DNA of 62,599 bases from an uncultured Adlercreutzia sp. (GTDB lineage: Bacteria; Actinomycetota; Coriobacteriia; Coriobacteriales; Eggerthellaceae), in assembly GCA_910585575.1 (NCBI GenBank), contig CAJUFS010000008.1, forward strand, positions 1 to 62,599. Direction: 5' to 3'. The notes beneath the pieces were generated by a model that made no database searches, had not been told where the DNA came from, and saw only the letters and a list, made by a program, of their open reading frames with translations. A program made the position numbers and the translations under genes. Of this stretch, positions 23,679-45,286 are shown in pieces. Each line of letters begins with the position of its first letter. The stretch's first letter is position 1.

Positions 23679-23712
23679 TCGCTCCGCTACTCACCTAGAA
23701 AGAGTGTTAGCC

Positions 23713-24825
23713 ATGCCTTATGACCCTTATACAGCGCTGTACCTGCATATTCCTTTTTGCGTGAAGCGGTGCGGGTACTGCGATTTCACTACCAGTGCGG
23801 TGGAGCGCGATTCGCCGATTATCGATGAGTACGTGGAATCGCTCGTGCTGGATATTCGCCGGGCTTCGCGCGAGGGGAAGCTGGGGGCGCTCGAGACGGT
23901 GTATCTGGGGGGCGGCACGCCGAGCTATATCGGCATGAAGCGGCTGTCCAGCTTGCTGTACGCTTTGGGCATGTCCATGCACTTGGAGCCCGAGGTGGAG
24001 TGCACCATGGAAGCGAACCCGGAGAGCCTGACCGAGCCCATGGTGCGCGACATTTGGGCGTTGGGCGCGAACCGGCTTTCGCTGGGAGTGCAGTCCTTCG
24101 ATGACGAGGTGCTGGCCATCCTCGGCCGCGCCCATAATGCGGAAGCGGCGCGTCGGGCCATTGCGGCGGCGCAGACGCGCTTCGACAACGTGTCGGTGGA
24201 CCTGATGTGCGGCATCCCCGGGCAAAGCGCCGACTCCTTCCGCCGCAGCGTCGAGGAGGCCGTGGCCCTGGGAGTGAAGCACGTGTCGGTGTACCCCCTC
24301 ACCATTGAGCCGAACACCCCCTTCGACCGCGCTGTGCTCCGCGGCGACATGCCCGAGCCCGATGACGACGTGGAGGCCGAGGCCATGGAAGCGGCCCGCG
24401 CGGTATTGGAGGCGGCCGGCTTTCACCGCTACGAAGTGGCCAGCTACGCCCTTCCCGGCTACGAGAGCCGCCACAACACCGCCTACTGGACCAGCAAGCC
24501 CTATCTGGGCCTGGGCCGTTCCGCTGTCACCATGACCCAGAACGCCGAGCGCCGCATGCGGGTGCAGGATGGCCAGGTCATCGACGACTTGAACGCGCAC
24601 CAAATGGCCGCCGAGGACCTCATGCTCGGCATGCGCATGGCCCGCGGCGTCAGCGACCAGCACGTGGCCCGCGCCACCGAGCTGCTCGAGGACGCCCCTG
24701 CCGTCTTCGCCGAACTAGAGCAACGGGGCCTCGCCGTCCATCAAGAAGGTCGCTGGCAGCCCACCGACACCGGCTGGCTCTGCGGCAACGAACTCTACGG
24801 CCGCCTCCTCGACCTAGCTCCGTAA
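23713..24825 (+). CDS. hemW: HemW-like radical SAM protein (heme chaperone family)
   Basis: The protein of about 370 residues shows the radical SAM motif HIPFCVKRCGYCDF (CxxxCxxC plus the extra Cys/Phe pattern typical of HemW/HemN), GGGTPSY and ANPESLT. HemW members bind heme and are often confused with oxygen-independent coproporphyrinogen oxidase HemN. The position upstream of hrcA-dnaJ is the classic HemW locus and supports the chaperone assignment. ATG 23713 with AAAGAG upstream is preferred over GTG 23704. Confidence 0.9.
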   Translation: MPYDPYTALYLHIPFCVKRCGYCDFTTSAVERDSPIIDEYVESLVLDIRRASREGKLGALETVYLGGGTPSYIGMKRLSSLLYALGMSMHLEPEVECTMEANPESLTEPMVRDIWALGANRLSLGVQSFDDEVLAILGRAHNAEAARRAIAAAQTRFDNVSVDLMCGIPGQSADSFRRSVEEAVALGVKHVSVYPLTIEPNTPFDRAVLRGDMPEPDDDVEAEAMEAARAVLEAAGFHRYEVASYALPGYESRHNTAYWTSKPYLGLGRSAVTMTQNAERRMRVQDGQVIDDLNAHQMAAEDLMLGMRMARGVSDQHVARATELLEDAPAVFAELEQRGLAVHQEGRWQPTDTGWLCGNELYGRLLDLAP

Positions 24826-24839
24826 GAACCAACTCGGTA

Positions 24840-24992
24840 GTCCCCGGAGGGTCGGGGGGCGCTTGCAGAGGTCTCTGAACGCCACATTCCTGCGACCGAA
24901 GGTCGCCCATAAAAACATGAAGGAGCGCAGCGCCCGAGCGAAGCGAGTCAGCGGAGCGGGTCCTCTGCAAGCGCCCCCGACCCTCCGGGGAC
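24840..24992. repeat. Intergenic inverted-repeat element B, copy 1
   Basis: Arms at 24840-24871 and 24962-24992 are complementary over their whole length except for one extra G. Between them is a core shared with two other copies near 44 kb. It holds a small hairpin GCGACC-GAA-GGTCGC (24892-24906), then CCCATAAAAACATGA and a series of GAGCG/AGCGG motifs. It lies between hemW and hrcA. The compact double arms could in principle end hemW transcription, but there is no T run. Confidence 0.8.
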
Positions 24993-25201
24993 GGACAGAG
25001 CGGGTTCCCGGCAGAAGACCCCGGGCCCCGACGGGCGGAGGGATGCTACCAGCCTTCCGTCTTCCGCCTTCCGCCCACCCCGTTGTGTCGCTTACGTCGA
25101 AATTGCAACCAAGTTAGCACTCTCTTGACCAGGTTGCTAAAATAACGTCAATAGCGAATGAAATGGTGCGCCGAAGGCCGCCGGGTAGGGAAGGAGTCAA
25201 G
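24993..25201. other. hrcA upstream region
   Basis: After element B copy 1, this GC-rich stretch holds the CIRCE-like operator and promoter (25114-25140) and the hrcA ribosome-binding site AAGGAG just before 25202. No gene is seen. Confidence 0.5.
25114..25140 (+). promoter_or_regulatory. CIRCE-type HrcA operator
   Basis: TTAGCACTC, nine bases, then GGTTGCTAA: the left arm is the exact CIRCE half-site and the right arm differs from GAGTGCTAA at a few positions. TTGACC, a good -35 hexamer, lies in the spacer (25125-25130). HrcA bound here would block its own promoter. Confidence 0.8.
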
Positions 25202-26212
25202 ATGCTGTCCGAGAGACGCCAACGTGTGCTGCGCGCGCTTATCGAAGACTACGTGGAATTCGCCCTGCCGGTTGGCTCGCGCACGCTGACCGAGCGGCAT
25301 CGGCTGGGGGTCAGCCCCGCCACGGTGCGCAACGACCTGTCGGCCCTGGAAGATGCCGGGTTCATCCAGCAGCCCCACACCTCGGCGGGCCGCGTACCCA
25401 CCGATGCGGGCTACCGCGCCTTTGTGGACGACTTACTGTCCAGTGGCCTTGCTGAGGAAGAGCTACCGCATCCGTCGCTCGTCGACGAGCTGCGCTCGAG
25501 CGCCACCGAGCTGGACACCCTCATGGAGCGCACGTCGGCGGCCTTAGCACGCCTGACCAACTGTCTGTCCATCGTGGCCGCCCCCTCGGTGTTCTCGGGG
25601 CGCATTCGCCAGCTTACCCTCGTGTCGCTTTCCAACTACCAGGCCATCATCATCGTGGTGGCCGAGGACGGGCAGGTGGCCAACCGCAACGTCACCTTTA
25701 CCGAAGAGGTAACGGCCGACGAGCTGGCCGGCGCCCAGAACCTGCTCAACCGCGTGCTGGTGGGCCAGTCGGCCCGCGATGTGCGCCGCAACTTGGACCT
25801 CAGCACCGTGGAGGCGCTGTCCGATCCACTCGTGCAGCTCATCATCGACGAAGTCATCGAGTGCCTGGGCGAAAGCGACGCCACCCGCGCCCATCGTCTC
25901 GGGCTCTCCTCGCTGCTGCGCCAGCCCGAGTTCAGCGACTCGAAGGCCCTCGTGCCCGTCATGGAGGTGCTCGAGGACGACCGCGTGCTCCTGCACACCT
26001 TCGACGACACCATTGAGGGCGAAGGCCCCGTCATGGTGCGCATCGGCCACGAGAACCCCGGCGAGGCCCTGGCCGGCGTGTCGGTAGTGGCGTGCCCCTA
26101 TGGCCGCGGCAACAGCGAGGGCATGGTGGCGGTCATCGGCCCCACGCGCATGAACTACTCCAACGTCATTCGCGCCGTGCGCGCCGCCCAGTGCGTGCTG
26201 CACGACGAATAG
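25202..26212 (+). CDS. hrcA: Heat-inducible transcription repressor HrcA
   Basis: The 336-residue repressor has an N-terminal winged helix ([48 protein letters not shown]) and a C-terminal GAF-like dimerisation domain ending with [11 protein letters not shown]-type sequence. It represses class I heat-shock genes through CIRCE and depends on GroEL for activity. ATG 25202 follows AAGGAG; 13 further in-frame residues upstream are rejected. It is followed by dnaJ without grpE or dnaK, so those must lie elsewhere. Confidence 0.96.
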
Positions 26213-36781: not shown

Positions 36782-38929
36782 ATGAAATGCCCCCACTGCT
36801 CATTTGAGAACCGCTCCGCCGCCCCGTTCTGCGAGAACTGCGGCGAAGTGTTCCCCGTGCGCATGAATATCCCTGAAATCAAAACTCCCTCAACCGACGC
36901 CAAGCGGCGCGGCGAGGTGCTCTCCGATGTGCCGCCCATTGTTAAGGTGCCGGAAATTCCACGCCCCGAAGTGAAGCGCGCCACCCCGGAAGAGGGCGCC
37001 GCACCGCTGCCCGACCCGGTGGCCGTGCCCGACCTGTCGGGCTTTGAGCGACTGGTGGATTCCACCTATGTGCCGCCCGTTCCGCACAACTCCGCTGGTG
37101 ACACCGCCGAGCTGCCGCGCATCGAGGAGGAGTACGTCCCCCGCGCCCGCAGCTATACCTTGGGACTCGATCCCAAAGAGCAGCGCAAGCGCGACCGCGA
37201 GCAGAAGCGCTTGGAGAAGAAGTTCGTCAAGCAGCAGCAAAAAGAAGAGGTCCGCGCCGCCAAAGAGGCCGAGAAAGCCGAAAAGGCTGCGCAGAAGGCG
37301 GCCGAAGCCGAGGAGCGTCAGGCGCGCAAGGCTGCTGAGGCCGAGGAGCGCCAAGCCCGCAAGGCGGCCGAAGCCGAAGAGCGTGCCGCTCGCAAAGCCG
37401 CGGAAGAGGAAGAGCGCCAAGCCCGCGAGGCCGCCGAAGCAGAGAAGCGCGCGGCGCAGAAAGCTGCTGAGGAAGCTGCCGCGCTGGCCGCTGCCGAGGC
37501 GACACAGAACGAACTAGCCGTTGCACCAGTTTTCGAAGAATCTGTCGAAGAAGCAGGCGTCGAGCCGGCAGCGACGGCGTTTGCCGCTGAGGACGAGGCG
37601 TCGGATGCCGAGAACGCCCAGCACGTCGCCGAGGAGCCCGCAGCCCTCATGGCTGCGGCCGGCACGGTCGCTCTCGCCGAACCCGGTGTCACGGTCCAGG
37701 AAGCAGAAGAGGCGTCACTCACCCTCGCTCCTCGCAGTCGTACAGAAGAGCTTCAGACACTGGCTCCCGCCGGCGCTTCGACGACAAGCGCTGATGACAT
37801 CGCCGGTGTTGCTGCTGCGGCCCCCGCCGCATCGGGCACCCTTTCGCTGGAAAATGCCCAGGACACAGCCACCGAAGATGCCACGGACGCGCCGGCACCC
37901 GCGAAGAGCCGTTCGACCACTTCCACTTCCAACGCTTCGCACAGCACCGCTCAGCCTTCCCACGGGCGCATCAGTCGCTCGAAAAAGCCGCTGGTCATTG
38001 CTATCTGTGCCTTGGTGGTTGTCATAGCCGTGGCGGTCGCCGGAGGCACCTATTACGCCGAGCTGTGGGGCGGTCGCACCGTGCCCGACGTCGTCGGCCT
38101 GGGCCAAAACGAGGCCATCGCCGAGCTGGAGCAAAAAGTATTCGCCGTCGAGGCTACTACCGTCCCCTCGGACGAGCCGGCGGGTACAGTCATCAGCTGC
38201 GAACCGGCAGGTGGCAGCCGCGTTGAAGAGGGAAGCACCGTCGTGCTCACCGTCGCAACGCCGCGCATCGTCCCCGAAGTCAAGGGGCTCGCGCAGCAGG
38301 AAGCCGTCGACGCTCTGGCTGCAGAGGGCTTTACGGCCATCGAGTACAAGGAAAAGAAGTCCAACAAAGACGAGGGCGTCGTACTTTCCGTGAGCCCCAA
38401 GGCAGGCGAGGAGGCCAAGGCCGATACCCCCATCACGCTGACGGTTGCCGTGCCCTTCACCGTTCCGAACGTCGAGGGCAAGAGCCAGGACGAGGCCACG
38501 AAGCTGTTGGAGGATGAGGGTTACAAGGTTTCCACGGACTGGTATGTCACCGAGGACATCGAGGAGGGCACGGCCGTCTCCACCGATCCCGAGGCAGGTA
38601 CCAAACTCGACTCGGGTTCCGATGTCACGCTCTACATCGCCCATTCCCGCGGCACCGAGCTGCGTGAGTTGACCGCTTCCATTCTGCCCGGCGCCACACT
38701 CACCGTCGACAATGTCACCTACCAGGTGCAGGATGTGAAGAGCACCAGCTACCGCGGCGACGGGGAAGTGAACTACACCGTGACGGCCAAGAAGTACGAG
38801 GTGGTCACCCTGCCCTTCGGCCTGGGCGAGAAAACGTACTACGACGACAAGGTGCAGACCATCGAGGGCGGCATCGTGTGGGACGACAACAACGAGGTCT
38901 CCTACGCCAGCCCCGCCATTCGCTACTAG
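36782..38929 (+). CDS. Zinc-ribbon, coiled-coil, PASTA-domain membrane protein without kinase domain
   Basis: The 715-residue protein starts with a zinc ribbon (CPHC at 3-6, CENC at 17-20). Residues 135-240 form a charged helix with an 11-residue repeat of the type KAAEAEERQAR. A low-complexity Ala/Glu/Thr region follows, then one transmembrane helix (404-426), three PASTA domains (about 432-495, 496-559, 560-623) and a beta-rich C-terminal domain. PASTA domains bind muropeptides or lipid II, so the outside senses or contacts peptidoglycan. There is no Ser/Thr kinase domain inside, which is unusual. It sits between era and recO. Confidence 0.85.
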   Translation: MKCPHCSFENRSAAPFCENCGEVFPVRMNIPEIKTPSTDAKRRGEVLSDVPPIVKVPEIPRPEVKRATPEEGAAPLPDPVAVPDLSGFERLVDSTYVPPVPHNSAGDTAELPRIEEEYVPRARSYTLGLDPKEQRKRDREQKRLEKKFVKQQQKEEVRAAKEAEKAEKAAQKAAEAEERQARKAAEAEERQARKAAEAEERAARKAAEEEERQAREAAEAEKRAAQKAAEEAAALAAAEATQNELAVAPVFEESVEEAGVEPAATAFAAEDEASDAENAQHVAEEPAALMAAAGTVALAEPGVTVQEAEEASLTLAPRSRTEELQTLAPAGASTTSADDIAGVAAAAPAASGTLSLENAQDTATEDATDAPAPAKSRSTTSTSNASHSTAQPSHGRISRSKKPLVIAICALVVVIAVAVAGGTYYAELWGGRTVPDVVGLGQNEAIAELEQKVFAVEATTVPSDEPAGTVISCEPAGGSRVEEGSTVVLTVATPRIVPEVKGLAQQEAVDALAAEGFTAIEYKEKKSNKDEGVVLSVSPKAGEEAKADTPITLTVAVPFTVPNVEGKSQDEATKLLEDEGYKVSTDWYVTEDIEEGTAVSTDPEAGTKLDSGSDVTLYIAHSRGTELRELTASILPGATLTVDNVTYQVQDVKSTSYRGDGEVNYTVTAKKYEVVTLPFGLGEKTYYDDKVQTIEGGIVWDDNNEVSYASPAIRY

Positions 38930-39709: not shown

Positions 39710-40167
39710 CTAAGTAGCCCAGTTGATGCTCAATCAGCCCGTAAAAGGTTAGTCCATAAGCAGATGATAGGTTCCAAGAACGGCTGGTTTGGTTCCCCGC
39801 AGACTGTCAAAATCGGCCAGTTTGGTATCCATTGTGAGCAAAATCCCAGGTCAAATTTTCTCTTCTGTAGCGAAGAAGGAACCAAACCGCCTGATCCTGG
39901 AACCTGAGGCAGGTTGACCCTGGGCAAGCAGGGCACTGCAGCGGGCAAGGGGGGAAGCCCTTGAAGAAACCGTGGCGTTCACCAATTCGTCAACAACGGC
40001 AGGCGCAAGGTGACCTATACTAGGCAAGCTGCATTGCAGCCCCGTCCGCTTTTAGTTCGCATGGACCACTTCCTTGCCTACTCAGAACGGACGCAACAAC
40101 GTAAGCGCCGTCGGCACCAAGCCGCGGCATCAAAGGCAGCGGCCCCGCTGCAGGAAAGGTGGAAACC
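39710..40167. other. recO-rpsO intergenic region
   Basis: This 458-bp gap holds element A copy 2 (39769-39905), then a candidate rpsO promoter with TATACT (40016-40021). About 140 bases of leader before S15 follow. The leader has several GC-rich inverted stretches and could be the S15 autoregulatory site, which differs among phyla, but I could not match it to a known fold. No gene is seen. Confidence 0.4.
39769..39905. repeat. Intergenic inverted-repeat element A, copy 2
   Basis: The arms 39769-39796 and 39878-39905 (28 nt, 23 of 28 complementary) begin AGGTTCCA and end inward TTTGGTTCC. A third copy of the inner motif, TTTGGTATCC, is at 39821-39830. Measured from AGGTTCC, the element is 137 bp long, the same as copy 1 from 21282 to 21418. 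The core also aligns: AAATCCCAGGTCAAATTTTCTC here, with AAACCCCAGTTCAGAATTTC-type sequence in copy 1. It separates recO from rpsO. Confidence 0.8.
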
Positions 40168-42920: not shown

Positions 42921-43688
42921 ATGATCAACGTAGCTGTCGCTGGCTATGCCGGCCGCATGGGCTCGGCCGTCGTCGACGCCGTCACCGCTGCTGATGACAT
43001 GCAGGTGGTCTGCGGCATCGATCCCCATGCCAAGGAGGCCCCCTTCCCAGTGTTCGCCACCGTGGAAGAGGCCCTGGACACCGTCACACCTGACGTGTTG
43101 GTGGACTTCACCCAGCCCTCCGTGGTGGCTAACAACCTGGCCGTGGCCCTGCCGCGCGGCGTGAACTGCGTCGTAGGCACCACCGGCCTGGCCACCGAGA
43201 AGCTCGAGGAGCTGGCCGCCACGGCCACTAACGGCGCTTGCCTGTTCTTCGCCCCCAACTTCACCACGGGCGCCGTGCTTATGATGGAGTTTGCGAAGGC
43301 CGCCGCCCCGTACTTCCCCGAGGCCGAGGTCATCGAGTACCACCACTGCAACAAGAAGGACGCCCCTTCCGGCACCGCCGTGCGCACCGCGCAAATGATC
43401 GCCGAAGCTCGCGCCCCTCGTGTCTCCGAAGCGCCCGGCCGCGAGACCGAAATTGAGGGAGCGGATGGTGCTCGTGGCGCCCTGGTGGACGGCGTGCCCG
43501 TGCATTCCGTGCGCTCCATGGGCTTCGTGGCCAGCCAGGAAGTCATCTTCGGCTCACTGGGGCAAACCCTCACCATCCGCCACGACTCCTGGGACCGCAC
43601 GTCCTACATGCCCGGCGTTCTGCTGGGCATTCGCAGCGTAGGGGAGCGAGAAGGCCTCATCATCGGCCTCGAAACCTTCATGGACTAA
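42921..43688 (+). CDS. dapB: 4-hydroxy-tetrahydrodipicolinate reductase
   Basis: The 255-residue enzyme reduces the DapA product in lysine and meso-diaminopimelate synthesis. It has the NAD(P) turn VAVAGYAGRMGS, the catalytic region EYHHCNKKDAPSGTA and the core TTGLATEKL. GAGAGGAG precedes the ATG. dapA is downstream, separated by 695 bp of repeats. Confidence 0.96.
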   Translation: MINVAVAGYAGRMGSAVVDAVTAADDMQVVCGIDPHAKEAPFPVFATVEEALDTVTPDVLVDFTQPSVVANNLAVALPRGVNCVVGTTGLATEKLEELAATATNGACLFFAPNFTTGAVLMMEFAKAAAPYFPEAEVIEYHHCNKKDAPSGTAVRTAQMIAEARAPRVSEAPGRETEIEGADGARGALVDGVPVHSVRSMGFVASQEVIFGSLGQTLTIRHDSWDRTSYMPGVLLGIRSVGEREGLIIGLETFMD

Positions 43689-43718: not shown

Positions 43719-43768
43719 GCTTTTGGCGCGCTTTCCATCACGCCACTTCGGACATATCCACTCGTCCG

Positions 43769-43922
43769 CGGGCGGCTCCCGGCATCCCCTCCGGGCACGC
43801 GCCGCTCCGCTGGCTCGCTTCGCTCGGGCGCTCCGCTCCCTCATGCATTCACATTGCGGCCTTCGGCCGCGTTTCAAGTTAGTGTTCAGACGGTGCCCTG
43901 CGGGGATGCCGGGAGCCGCCCG
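43769..43922. repeat. Intergenic inverted-repeat element B, copy 2 (reverse orientation)
   Basis: The arms 43769-43789 and 43902-43922 are a perfect 21-bp inverted repeat. The core is the reverse complement of the copy 1 core and contains the hairpin GCGGCC-TTC-GGCCGC (43856-43870). Its right flank, 43882-43905, is a perfect 24-base inverted match to 43973-43996 in copy 3. Confidence 0.8.
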
Positions 43923-43954
43923 CTACTGAGACAGGTTTCAAAACCCTTTGAGAA

Positions 43955-44111
43955 GCCGACGGGGCGCGGAACCCCCGCAGGGCACCGTCTGAACACCATA
44001 TTTAACGCGATCGCAGATCGCCCATAAATGCATGAGGGAGCGCAGCGCACGAGGCCGCAGGCCGAGCAGCGGAGCGGCGCGTGCCCGGAGGGGGTTGCGC
44101 GTCCCGTCGGC
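43955..44111. repeat. Intergenic inverted-repeat element B, copy 3
   Basis: The arms are 43955-43976 and 44090-44111 (20 of 22 complementary). The core is in forward orientation: hairpin GCGATC-GCA-GATCGC (44007-44021), then CCCATAAATGCATGAGGG and the GAGCGCAGCGC series. Compared with copy 1 the core has a 3-base insertion that lengthens a second small hairpin (GGCC-GCA-GGCC). Confidence 0.8.
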
Positions 44112-44284
44112 GGACAGGCGGGATTAAACTTATCAGAGAAGAATGTCGGGAGCCGTCCGCGGACAGATGAGGCGAATCGATCAGCAAAGGACACTCGAAG
44201 CCGGCTTCAGCCGAACAGGGGGGGGGAGGCGGCAGAGTTGCAGATCGGTGCCGTTAGCTTGTGGGTTTGACGTACTCGCGCCGC

Positions 44285-44383: not shown

Positions 44384-45286
44384 ATGCAGTTCAAACGCGA
44401 TCCCCGCTTCGGCCGCATGATTCCGGCCATGGTCACCCCGTTCAACCAGGATCTGGAACTCGACCTTGACCGCGCCCAGCAGCTGGCCGATCGTCTCGTG
44501 CGCGGCGGCTCCGATGCGCTCATCATCAACGGCACCACGGGCGAGAGCCCCACGGTGTTCTATCCGCAGAAGCTCGAGCTGTTCCGCGCCGTGGTGAAGG
44601 CGGTCAACGGGCGCGTGCCCGTCATCGCCAACGTGGGCGACAACTGCACCGCCGACACGGTGTACTTCGCCCAGGATGCCCAGAAGCTCGGCGTCGACGG
44701 TTTCATGTGTGTGGTGCCCTACTACAACAAGCCTCCGCAAGAGGGCCTGTACCAGCACTTCAAGACCATCGCCTCCAATGTGGAGCTGCCCATCATCCTG
44801 TACAACATTCCCGGACGCTGCTCCATCAACATGGAAGCGGAAACCACCCTGCGCCTGGCCCACAATTTCGACAATATCGTGGCCATCAAGGAGGCCTCGG
44901 GCGATCTCGACCAGGTGAAGTTCATCATCGACAACGCGCCCGACAACTTCGATGTCTACTCCGGCGACGACTCCGCCACCCTCGACATCATGAAGCTCGG
45001 CGGTGCGGGCGTCATCTCCACCATCGGCAACGTGGCTCCCGAGCGCATGAAGGAAATCGTCACCCTGTGCGCCCGCGAGGAGTGGGACGAGGCGGAAGCG
45101 GCCAACGAGGCTCTTATGCCGCTTATGAAGGGCCTGTTCGAAACTTCGAACCCCATCCTGGTGAAGGAGGCGCTCAGCCTCATCGGCTTCCCCGTGGGCG
45201 GTGTGCGCCTGCCCTTGGTCGACGCCACCCCCGAGCAGTCTCGTCGCCTCGCTGGCATCATGCGCGAGGTGGGCGTGCTGGACTAG
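44384..45286 (+). CDS. dapA: 4-hydroxy-tetrahydrodipicolinate synthase
   Basis: The 300-residue TIM-barrel lyase condenses pyruvate with aspartate semialdehyde. The Schiff-base lysine is in VAIKEASGD, the catalytic tyrosine in LYNIPGR and the substrate loop in NGTTGESPT. GAGGAGAGG stands before ATG 44384. It supplies lysine and diaminopimelate for the wall. Confidence 0.96.
   Translation: MQFKRDPRFGRMIPAMVTPFNQDLELDLDRAQQLADRLVRGGSDALIINGTTGESPTVFYPQKLELFRAVVKAVNGRVPVIANVGDNCTADTVYFAQDAQKLGVDGFMCVVPYYNKPPQEGLYQHFKTIASNVELPIILYNIPGRCSINMEAETTLRLAHNFDNIVAIKEASGDLDQVKFIIDNAPDNFDVYSGDDSATLDIMKLGGAGVISTIGNVAPERMKEIVTLCAREEWDEAEAANEALMPLMKGLFETSNPILVKEALSLIGFPVGGVRLPLVDATPEQSRRLAGIMREVGVLD

Follow-up and report, generated by a model that had tools for sequence, protein, structure and literature searches.

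An uncultured Adlercreutzia sp. carries three inverted repeats in the 62,599-nucleotide stretch of contig CAJUFS010000008.1 that we analysed (hereafter, the window), each pairing closely with itself although the outer arms differ from copy to copy. The question raised by this locus is what keeps the pairing while the sequence changes, and what kind of element is defined in this way. The earlier note had proposed selection on structure, with a tiny peptide as a weaker alternative.

The window copies and their relatives

The three copies are present where they had been described, and their core hairpins (P2) can be read back from the sequence as GCGACC-GAA-GGTCGC in copy 1, GCGGCC-GAA-GGCCGC in copy 2 and GCGATC-GCA-GATCGC in copy 3, with two stem positions varying among the copies and their partners varying too. 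The outer arms also pair inside each copy, as claimed: 43768-43798 pairs with 43893-43923 in copy 2 (94%), and an inverted-repeat scan finds the arms of copy 1 within 24826-24871, pairing with 24962-25007. For each of the three copies, folding is better than in 200/200 dinucleotide shuffles, with z-scores of -9.75 for copy 1 and -7.80 for copy 2 as RNA and -5.01 for copy 3 as DNA. No window copy lies inside a gene; all three are intergenic.

With the fixed ends described below, the elements are slightly wider than the earlier coordinates. Copy 1 extends on the plus strand from GTAG at 24837 to the end of GGAC at 24996, between a HemN-type radical SAM gene (23704-24825) and hrcA (25163-26212). 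In order, it comprises the 5' arm of the outer stem P1 (24840-24871), the conserved junction motif TCTGAACGC (24874-24882), the P2 hairpin (24892-24906), the left strand of P3, GAGCGCAGCGC (24923-24933), the P4 hairpin with its flanking C-G pair and two GA steps (24935-24947), the right strand of P3, CAGCGGAGCGG (24949-24959), and the 3' arm of P1 (24962-24992). About 120 bp downstream of the end of copy 1, and upstream of hrcA, positions 25114-25140 read TTAGCACTC...GTTGCTAA, which we take to resemble a degenerate CIRCE operator.

Copies 2 and 3 both sit between dapB (42921-43688) and dapA (44384-45286), in opposite orientations. Copy 2 lies on the minus strand (43764-43926), with P2 at 43856-43870 and the left and right strands of P3 at 43828-43838 and 43802-43812. 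Copy 3 lies on the plus strand (43952-44115) and has GAAG rather than GTAG at its 5' foot; its P2 is at 44007-44021, its P3 strands are at 44038-44048 (left) and 44067-44077 (right), and its P4 takes a 4-bp form, GGCC-GCA-GGCC (44050-44066). Downstream of copy 3, at 44147-44165, there is a remnant 3' arm with a GGAC end that matches the arm of the orthologous locus L089 in G008, a genome of the same genus, and the dapB/dapA locus has therefore been rearranged, with an inverted copy 2 and an added copy 3. Head-to-head pairs of elements, with their 5' ends facing a short distance apart as in REP pairs, recur in several genera: besides the dapB/dapA pair (43764-44115), they are seen at L070 (4498-4759), L104 (5727-5989), L110 (4577-4843) and L199 (926-1194). 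Elsewhere in the window, six 33-bp units stand head-to-tail at 37262-37492, within a long ORF (36782-38929).

The repeat is dispersed well beyond these three sites. A BLASTN query with the 71-nt core of copy 1 gives 28 matches in the window's own genome at E<=1, some of them partial, and at E<=0.001 the same DNA query gives matches in 9/9 genomes of the genus and 0/32 outside it. A pattern scan of named genomes returned 61 stretches, 56 of which show the element when read by eye with their flanks. The element-bearing stretches carry the Adlercreutzia species labels equolifaciens, caecimuris, hattorii, muris, mucosicola and murintestinalis, as well as the labels Gordonibacter, Enteroscipio, Curtanaerobium and Aveggerthella; uncultured bins with the element are assigned to Adlercreutzia, Enterorhabdus, Eggerthellaceae and, in one case, Coriobacteriaceae. 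Five stretches (L073, L074, L082, L096 and L121) lie outside Eggerthellaceae and show no fold by eye, and are therefore taken as chance matches. Copy 1 has no match in the plasmid and phage collections, and the single pattern match in viral contigs (L124), which has no surrounding fold by eye, was rejected.

Covariance models extend this distribution through the family. Model R1, built from 47 copies, matches at least 45/138 Eggerthellaceae genomes in at least 23/48 genera, with 1 to 27 matches per genome (E<=0.01), and model R2, built from 41 chosen copies, matches at least 27/346 genomes drawn from the class, every one of them in Eggerthellaceae; both genome counts are lower bounds, as stricter filters applied above 40 genomes. 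Within the collected loci, R1 gives 70 + 106 matches corresponding to 151 distinct sequences, of which 134 were parsed for the inner strands. Such a model can be used to identify intergenic repeats and enzyme inserts that are so far unexplained in Eggerthellaceae.

At gathering score, Rfam 15 has nothing in the window, and it gives no match of any kind for L079. Copy 1 has only six weak matches, to microRNA, viral and human models, the best at E 9e-5 and 31 bits, where the gathering score is 142, as is typical of long hairpins. Among the literature matches listed, no title concerns this repeat. The main text of PMC8040213, on RNA candidates from the human microbiome, contains no Eggerthella, Adlercreutzia or Coriobacteri-; the element motif may be among its 3161 candidates. 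A second repeat, with a core like GCGCGCAAGGCCGAAGGCCGAGCAAGCGGG, often stands just downstream of the element (L011, L021, L023, L027, L069, L111 and L117) and is another small hairpin repeat of similar style.

Fold, fixed ends and covariation

From the aligned copies, the predicted fold is a three-way junction, in which a variable outer stem P1 encloses hairpin P2 and the GA-rich helix P3, a long-range pairing with P4 as its cap. From 5' to 3', the first half comprises the tag G[T/C]AG, the P1 arm, TCTGAACRC, a linker that is A-rich or CATTCCTG-like, P2 and GCATGARG; the second half comprises P3 left AGCGNAGCGC, Y-GA, P4, GA-R, P3 right CAGCGNAGCGG, the other P1 arm and GGAC(AGG). From stem end to stem end, the element measures about 150-260 bp. 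A few of the distant copies, among them L071, L108 and L110, have no P2. The length of P4 varies between 2 bp in Adlercreutzia and about 19 bp in Gordonibacter (L070, L104), and its sequence depends on the genus. In the orthologous Gordonibacter copies L070 and L104, the P4 loops are reverse complementary (CAAA versus TTTG) and the arms nearly identical, as if the top of the hairpin had flipped.

The ends are fixed even though the stems between them are not. At the stem foot, G[T/C]AG occurs in 69/119 arms versus 4-10 at shifted control positions, GTAG exactly in 41/119 versus 0-4, and GGAC in 53/119 versus 0-6. The two P1 arms of an element match at 81% on average, compared to 45% between elements (124 non-redundant arms). 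Certain mismatches are also retained: a GNA/GNA internal loop is found in P1 in 23/134 distinct arms, 21/25 such blocks stand 10-12 nt from TCTGAAC, and they account for 25/42 of the 3x3 blocks among the 12 kinds listed. In most copies read, the P2 loops keep the GNA direction. No T-run of an intrinsic terminator was seen beside the stems in the copies read, by eye only.

The proposal of selection on structure finds support in this far larger set of copies, although the fold originally drawn was incomplete, P3 being missing from it. Covariation in the larger alignment is borne out both by shuffles and by a tree-based test. When 41 chosen copies are aligned with plain MAFFT (A4), 8/10 pairs have changes on both sides, a number reached by 0/500 shuffles; the count of further pair types, one of five measures, does not exceed its shuffles in the 41-copy alignment. 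In A4, the long-range reading of P3 has 100% and 98.8% of its pairs formed, and three pairs show double changes, whereas the same positions read as local hairpins are 95.1% and 96.3% formed, with zero double changes. Local mini-hairpins with GNA loops within the P3 strands are thus ruled out by the long-range pair data, because the pairs change across the element and not inside the strands. Past the ATG, the core forms one strand of the long-range helix rather than a local hairpin.

Individual exchanges in P3 illustrate this pairing. AGCG is replaced by AGTG in 15/134 copies, and the facing G is replaced by A in 14 of these 15 and in no other parsed copy, while two rarer exchanges each occur in 2/2 copies; these counts exclude 17 unparsed copies, at least two of which (L224, L148) break the exchange. 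The Y-R pair adjoining P4 agrees in all but 5/134 parsed copies. In the tree-based co-change test (FastTree, Fitch states), we used 120 unique rows, obtained from 134 by removing 3 odd-length rows and duplicates, and covered the 17 column pairs in which two or more co-changes keep the pair. Eleven pairs, all predicted ones in P2, P3 and P4, have p values of 0.0007 to 0.0013, which are uncorrected for multiple tests and have a floor of 1 in 1501, while the remaining six pairs are off the structure, with p from 0.022. The covariation of P2 and P4 in this test is partly built in, since P2 was cut by the folding program and P4 by position, whereas that of P3, which was cut by motif, is independent of folding.

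The mismatches that remain are not symmetrical between strands. Isolated arm mismatches comprise 67 G.T versus 38 A.C (p 0.006, counted without an energy model), and a cruder count over 87 elements gives 75 versus 59. This excess of G.T over A.C on the GTAG strand suggests that it is the folding one, as RNA or as single-stranded DNA.

The conserved ATG could alternatively be read as the start of a small peptide gene, and it is indeed present in 124/134 parsed copies, with a single frame common to the three window copies. As had been noticed, one 3-base indel is the only length change after the ATG in the window; the frame is, however, not kept across the family, where the distance from the ATG to the conserved end falls into frame classes of 42, 45 and 37 copies and many frames end within 9 codons. 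Furthermore, the ATG is ACG in several G101 copies and is absent in all three G043 copies read. The frame classes refute the tiny peptide, and we give this alternative virtually no credence.

Genomic context and copies within genes

Closely related genomes differ in which sites carry a copy. When the window's own genome is compared with G008, locus L022 has a copy that is absent at L072, while L072 has another that is absent at L022. At the two clean sites, the extra DNA measures about 190 and 270 bp, exceeding element size, and begins at, or within one or two codons of, a stop codon. At L022 and L072, no target-site duplication was seen, the boundaries being blurred by other inserted DNA. Two less clean presence/absence sites between the same genomes add to these: the copy of L084 is missing at window position 39945, where there are other changes too, and at L010 the corresponding site in G008 has the two ends of the element joined together, probably by deletion of the hairpin, so that some presence/absence may reflect loss. 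In the stretches orthologous to copy 1 in 6/6 congeners (L250-L255), there is no R1 match, and the intergenic DNA has diverged there.

The genes flanking the element are convergent at 54 loci, tandem and antisense at 38, tandem and sense at 24, and divergent at only 4, according to a heuristic call that excludes ORFs spanning the element, and so misfiles genic copies, and that leaves 31/151 without a neighbour call. There is no orientation bias toward the transcribed gene (24 sense-tandem versus 38 antisense-tandem, p 0.10), and no dedicated neighbour gene is observed, as the 270 neighbour ORFs fall into 186 clusters.

At orthologous loci with both flanks matching, arms have changed together, with mirrored one-base indels (L141/L142; L070/L104) or larger mirrored changes (L052/L041, L035/L038), which fits either selection or hairpin-templated correction. 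Elsewhere P3 has decayed in part, which speaks against a strict constraint on every copy: among orthologous copies, L044 lacks two P3 bases, and L224 has an altered P3 and P4. Over 33 pairs of copies, the stem pairs divide into 1609 unchanged, 278 with a single change losing the pair, 119 gapped, 108 with a single change keeping the pair, 97 with a double change keeping it and 66 with a double change losing it; these counts are rough, as some pairs are misaligned (different elements at one locus) and one is a tandem rather than an orthologous pair. At this short range, stem changes do not clearly show a bias toward keeping the pair, and in the closest orthologous pairs, changes are often single and unpaired. 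In 14 selected pairs, core divergence is 6.0% versus 8.9% in the flanks, a comparison of low trust in which the core ends are misplaced in part.

Beyond the window, some copies reside within genes. Stop-free frames reaching at least 50 codons beyond both ends enclose 34/136 elements, for the most part on the strand facing GTAG (32 minus and 4 plus frames), and many such frames are due to chance in GC-rich DNA. When ten in-frame candidates were run against Pfam, and eight of those against NCBIfam too, 9 copies were found in frame in 8 genes, all antisense to the gene. Five of these are bracketed on both sides by homologous sequence, in PurL (L182, L187), HypF (L186), MnmA (L176) and a U32 peptidase (L179). 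The other four share an open frame with a known domain on one side only: one is at the tail of a U32 peptidase (L180), one is at the tail of FtsH (L181), and two stand in tandem upstream of the SufD core domain at L077, where the start codon is putative. Two further candidates are unsupported as genic inserts: L214, with a frame upstream of an argininosuccinate-lyase-type Lyase_1 domain, and L219, for which no domain was found.

All seven genes other than SufD belong to one genus (g38), in genomes G059, G060 and G064, while L077 is from Curtanaerobium; in these two other genera, the reading frame of the host gene continues through the element on the strand opposite to GTAG. The inserts are about 58-87 codons long, and 8/9 genic copies use the same frame (p 0.003, weighted by frame openness and treating copies as independent). 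Insert-free orthologues were found for 2/8 genes, within the same genus: the PurL orthologues of G062 and G060 have 9 bp where the carriers have about 73 codons, and the MnmA orthologue of G062 has 51 bp where the carrier has about 80 codons. Further long frames match the insert peptide weakly, which suggests that there may be more such copies.

Possible explanations and relation to known systems

That this is a real structured repeat is well supported, and a new family of mobile palindromic elements able to reside in genes is its most likely identity. We estimate a probability of about 0.58 that these are small, non-autonomous mobile elements recognised as a folded single strand, so far seen only in Eggerthellaceae. 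On this account, the strand from GTAG to GGAC(AGG) would fold into a closed three-way junction of P1, P2 and the GA-rich P3 capped by P4, and trans-acting machinery would recognise that folded single strand, whether DNA or RNA, so that pairing and a few single-stranded motifs would be kept while stem sequences drift. Most copies lie between genes, frequently right after a stop codon, and those in genes are in-frame inserts where the antisense strand offers an open frame. The data establish the dispersal, the presence/absence differences between relatives, the fixed ends, the conserved fold with its covariation and the in-frame residence in genes; what we infer is that the folded strand is the substrate of mobility, that an enzyme works on it in trans, and that selection comes from transposition and not from a host function. 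No mobilising enzyme was found, however, and further observations count against mobility. At the sites inspected no target-site duplication is visible, the extra DNA at the two clean sites is longer than the element, and the G008 site at L010 looks like a deletion. In different species, many copies occupy orthologous loci and their arms still pair, as a host function would also produce. In addition, single-strand DNA transposition of the IS200/IS605 kind is expected to leave a replication-strand bias, which is absent among 20 G008 copies (12 versus 8, with positive GC skew taken as the leading strand and skew near zero in one region).

The persistence of pairing at orthologous loci is equally what would be seen of a structured RNA with a host role, such as a 3' UTR stabiliser or a processing or regulatory element, that has been duplicated to many genes. 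The strand-specific excess of G.T, the GA-rich internal loops and conserved unpaired motifs, and the placement behind stop codons with avoidance of divergent gene pairs (4/120) all agree with such a role, and covarying helices with conserved unpaired motifs liken the element to the structured noncoding RNA classes of Rfam 15. Yet the element, unlike those classes, matches no Rfam family above the gathering threshold, it has no orientation toward the transcribed gene, its neighbour genes are mostly unrelated, some orthologous copies decay (L044, L224), and close relatives differ in presence and absence, all of which make a host role unlikely. It is less likely still that there is no selection at all and that pairing is kept by quasipalindrome correction, in which template switching within replicating hairpins makes one arm a copy of the other. 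Mirror-image changes, mirrored one-base indels among them (L141/L142, L052/L041, L070/L104), the reverse-complementary P4 loop of L070 relative to its orthologue L104 and the short-range stem changes without clear pair-keeping bias would all follow from such copying, but defined mismatches persist, as in the GNA/GNA loop of P1 and the purine steps of P3, the P2 loops retain their direction in most copies read, and the covarying segments of P3 are short and set apart by purines that do not complement each other.

A further alternative is an oversized REP element mobilised by a REP-associated tyrosine transposase (RAYT). As described in excerpts of PMC8266576, REPs have GTAG at the 5' foot of a GC-rich stem, as the element does, and by excerpts of PMC3733652, PMC8266576 and PMC12306157 they are likewise intergenic, near stop codons and sometimes in head-to-head pairs. 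Y1_Tnp genes are common in Eggerthellaceae (71/138 genomes), and in G064 an element has one about 1.1 kb away. That element (L182), however, proved to be inside PurL, and there is no Y1_Tnp match in the window's own genome (G000, 90% complete) or in G008, the two most copy-rich genomes. Moreover, Y1_Tnp is found in 24/45 element-bearing versus 47/93 other genomes (Fisher p 0.86), the 9 loci around Y1_Tnp genes contain no credible R1 match (best E 0.77), and the perfect inverted repeats in 2/8 Y1_Tnp loci are unlike the element. At 150-260 bp with a branched fold, the element also differs from REPs, which are simple hairpin units of 20-50 nt. Mobilisation by a RAYT is rejected for the window's genome and is very improbable overall.

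Returning to small mobile elements recognised by their fold, the family is best read, by analogy, as working like the Rickettsia palindromic elements (RPE). In excerpts of PMC2229807 and PMC10969869, which cite Ogata et al. 2000, 2002 and 2005 for RPE and Wolbachia palindromic repeats, RPE are given as 105-146 bp or about 150 bp, lie in frame in conserved genes and are predicted to form long stem-loops. Like these repeats, the element is a short dispersed palindrome, both intergenic and in frame in conserved genes, that is predicted to fold. In contrast to RPE as described there, it belongs to another phylum, Actinomycetota, it has a family-wide three-way junction with a covarying long-range helix and near-free stem sequence, and the gene reads the strand opposite to its GTAG strand. 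With the MITEs ERIC, YPAL and RUP, as presented in parts of the same two papers, it shares small size, inverted ends, non-autonomy and the lack of a gene of its own; unlike MITEs, its arms are not common to copies (45% identity) and only a few end bases are shared. No target duplication was seen at the sites inspected, where other inserted DNA blurs the boundaries.

Palindromic DNA in frame in housekeeping genes is thus known from Rickettsia and Wolbachia, going by the same excerpts (PMC10969869, PMC2229807). The present family adds an example from common gut Actinomycetota; its fold is unusually well defined, its ends are fixed and it occurs in many genomes. Together with the natural presence/absence pairs, this makes testable the old question of how these elements move and why structure outlasts sequence. 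A more speculative view, which we hold only tentatively and consider improbable, is that of a selfish element inherited as a fold and not as a sequence, a branched single strand and perhaps an RNA copied into DNA like a bacterial SINE, that adds in-frame inserts of about 58-87 codons to housekeeping enzymes, PurL and MnmA among them. If true, such an element would have spread through a bacterial family with its stems drifting freely under the constraint of pairing.

Finally, at L260 (953-1052) and L267 (1186-1279), perfect inverted repeats of 29-32 nt with 36-nt spacers stand within a few hundred bases of genes for Y1_Tnp (RAYT-like) and are perhaps the cognate REPs of those genes.
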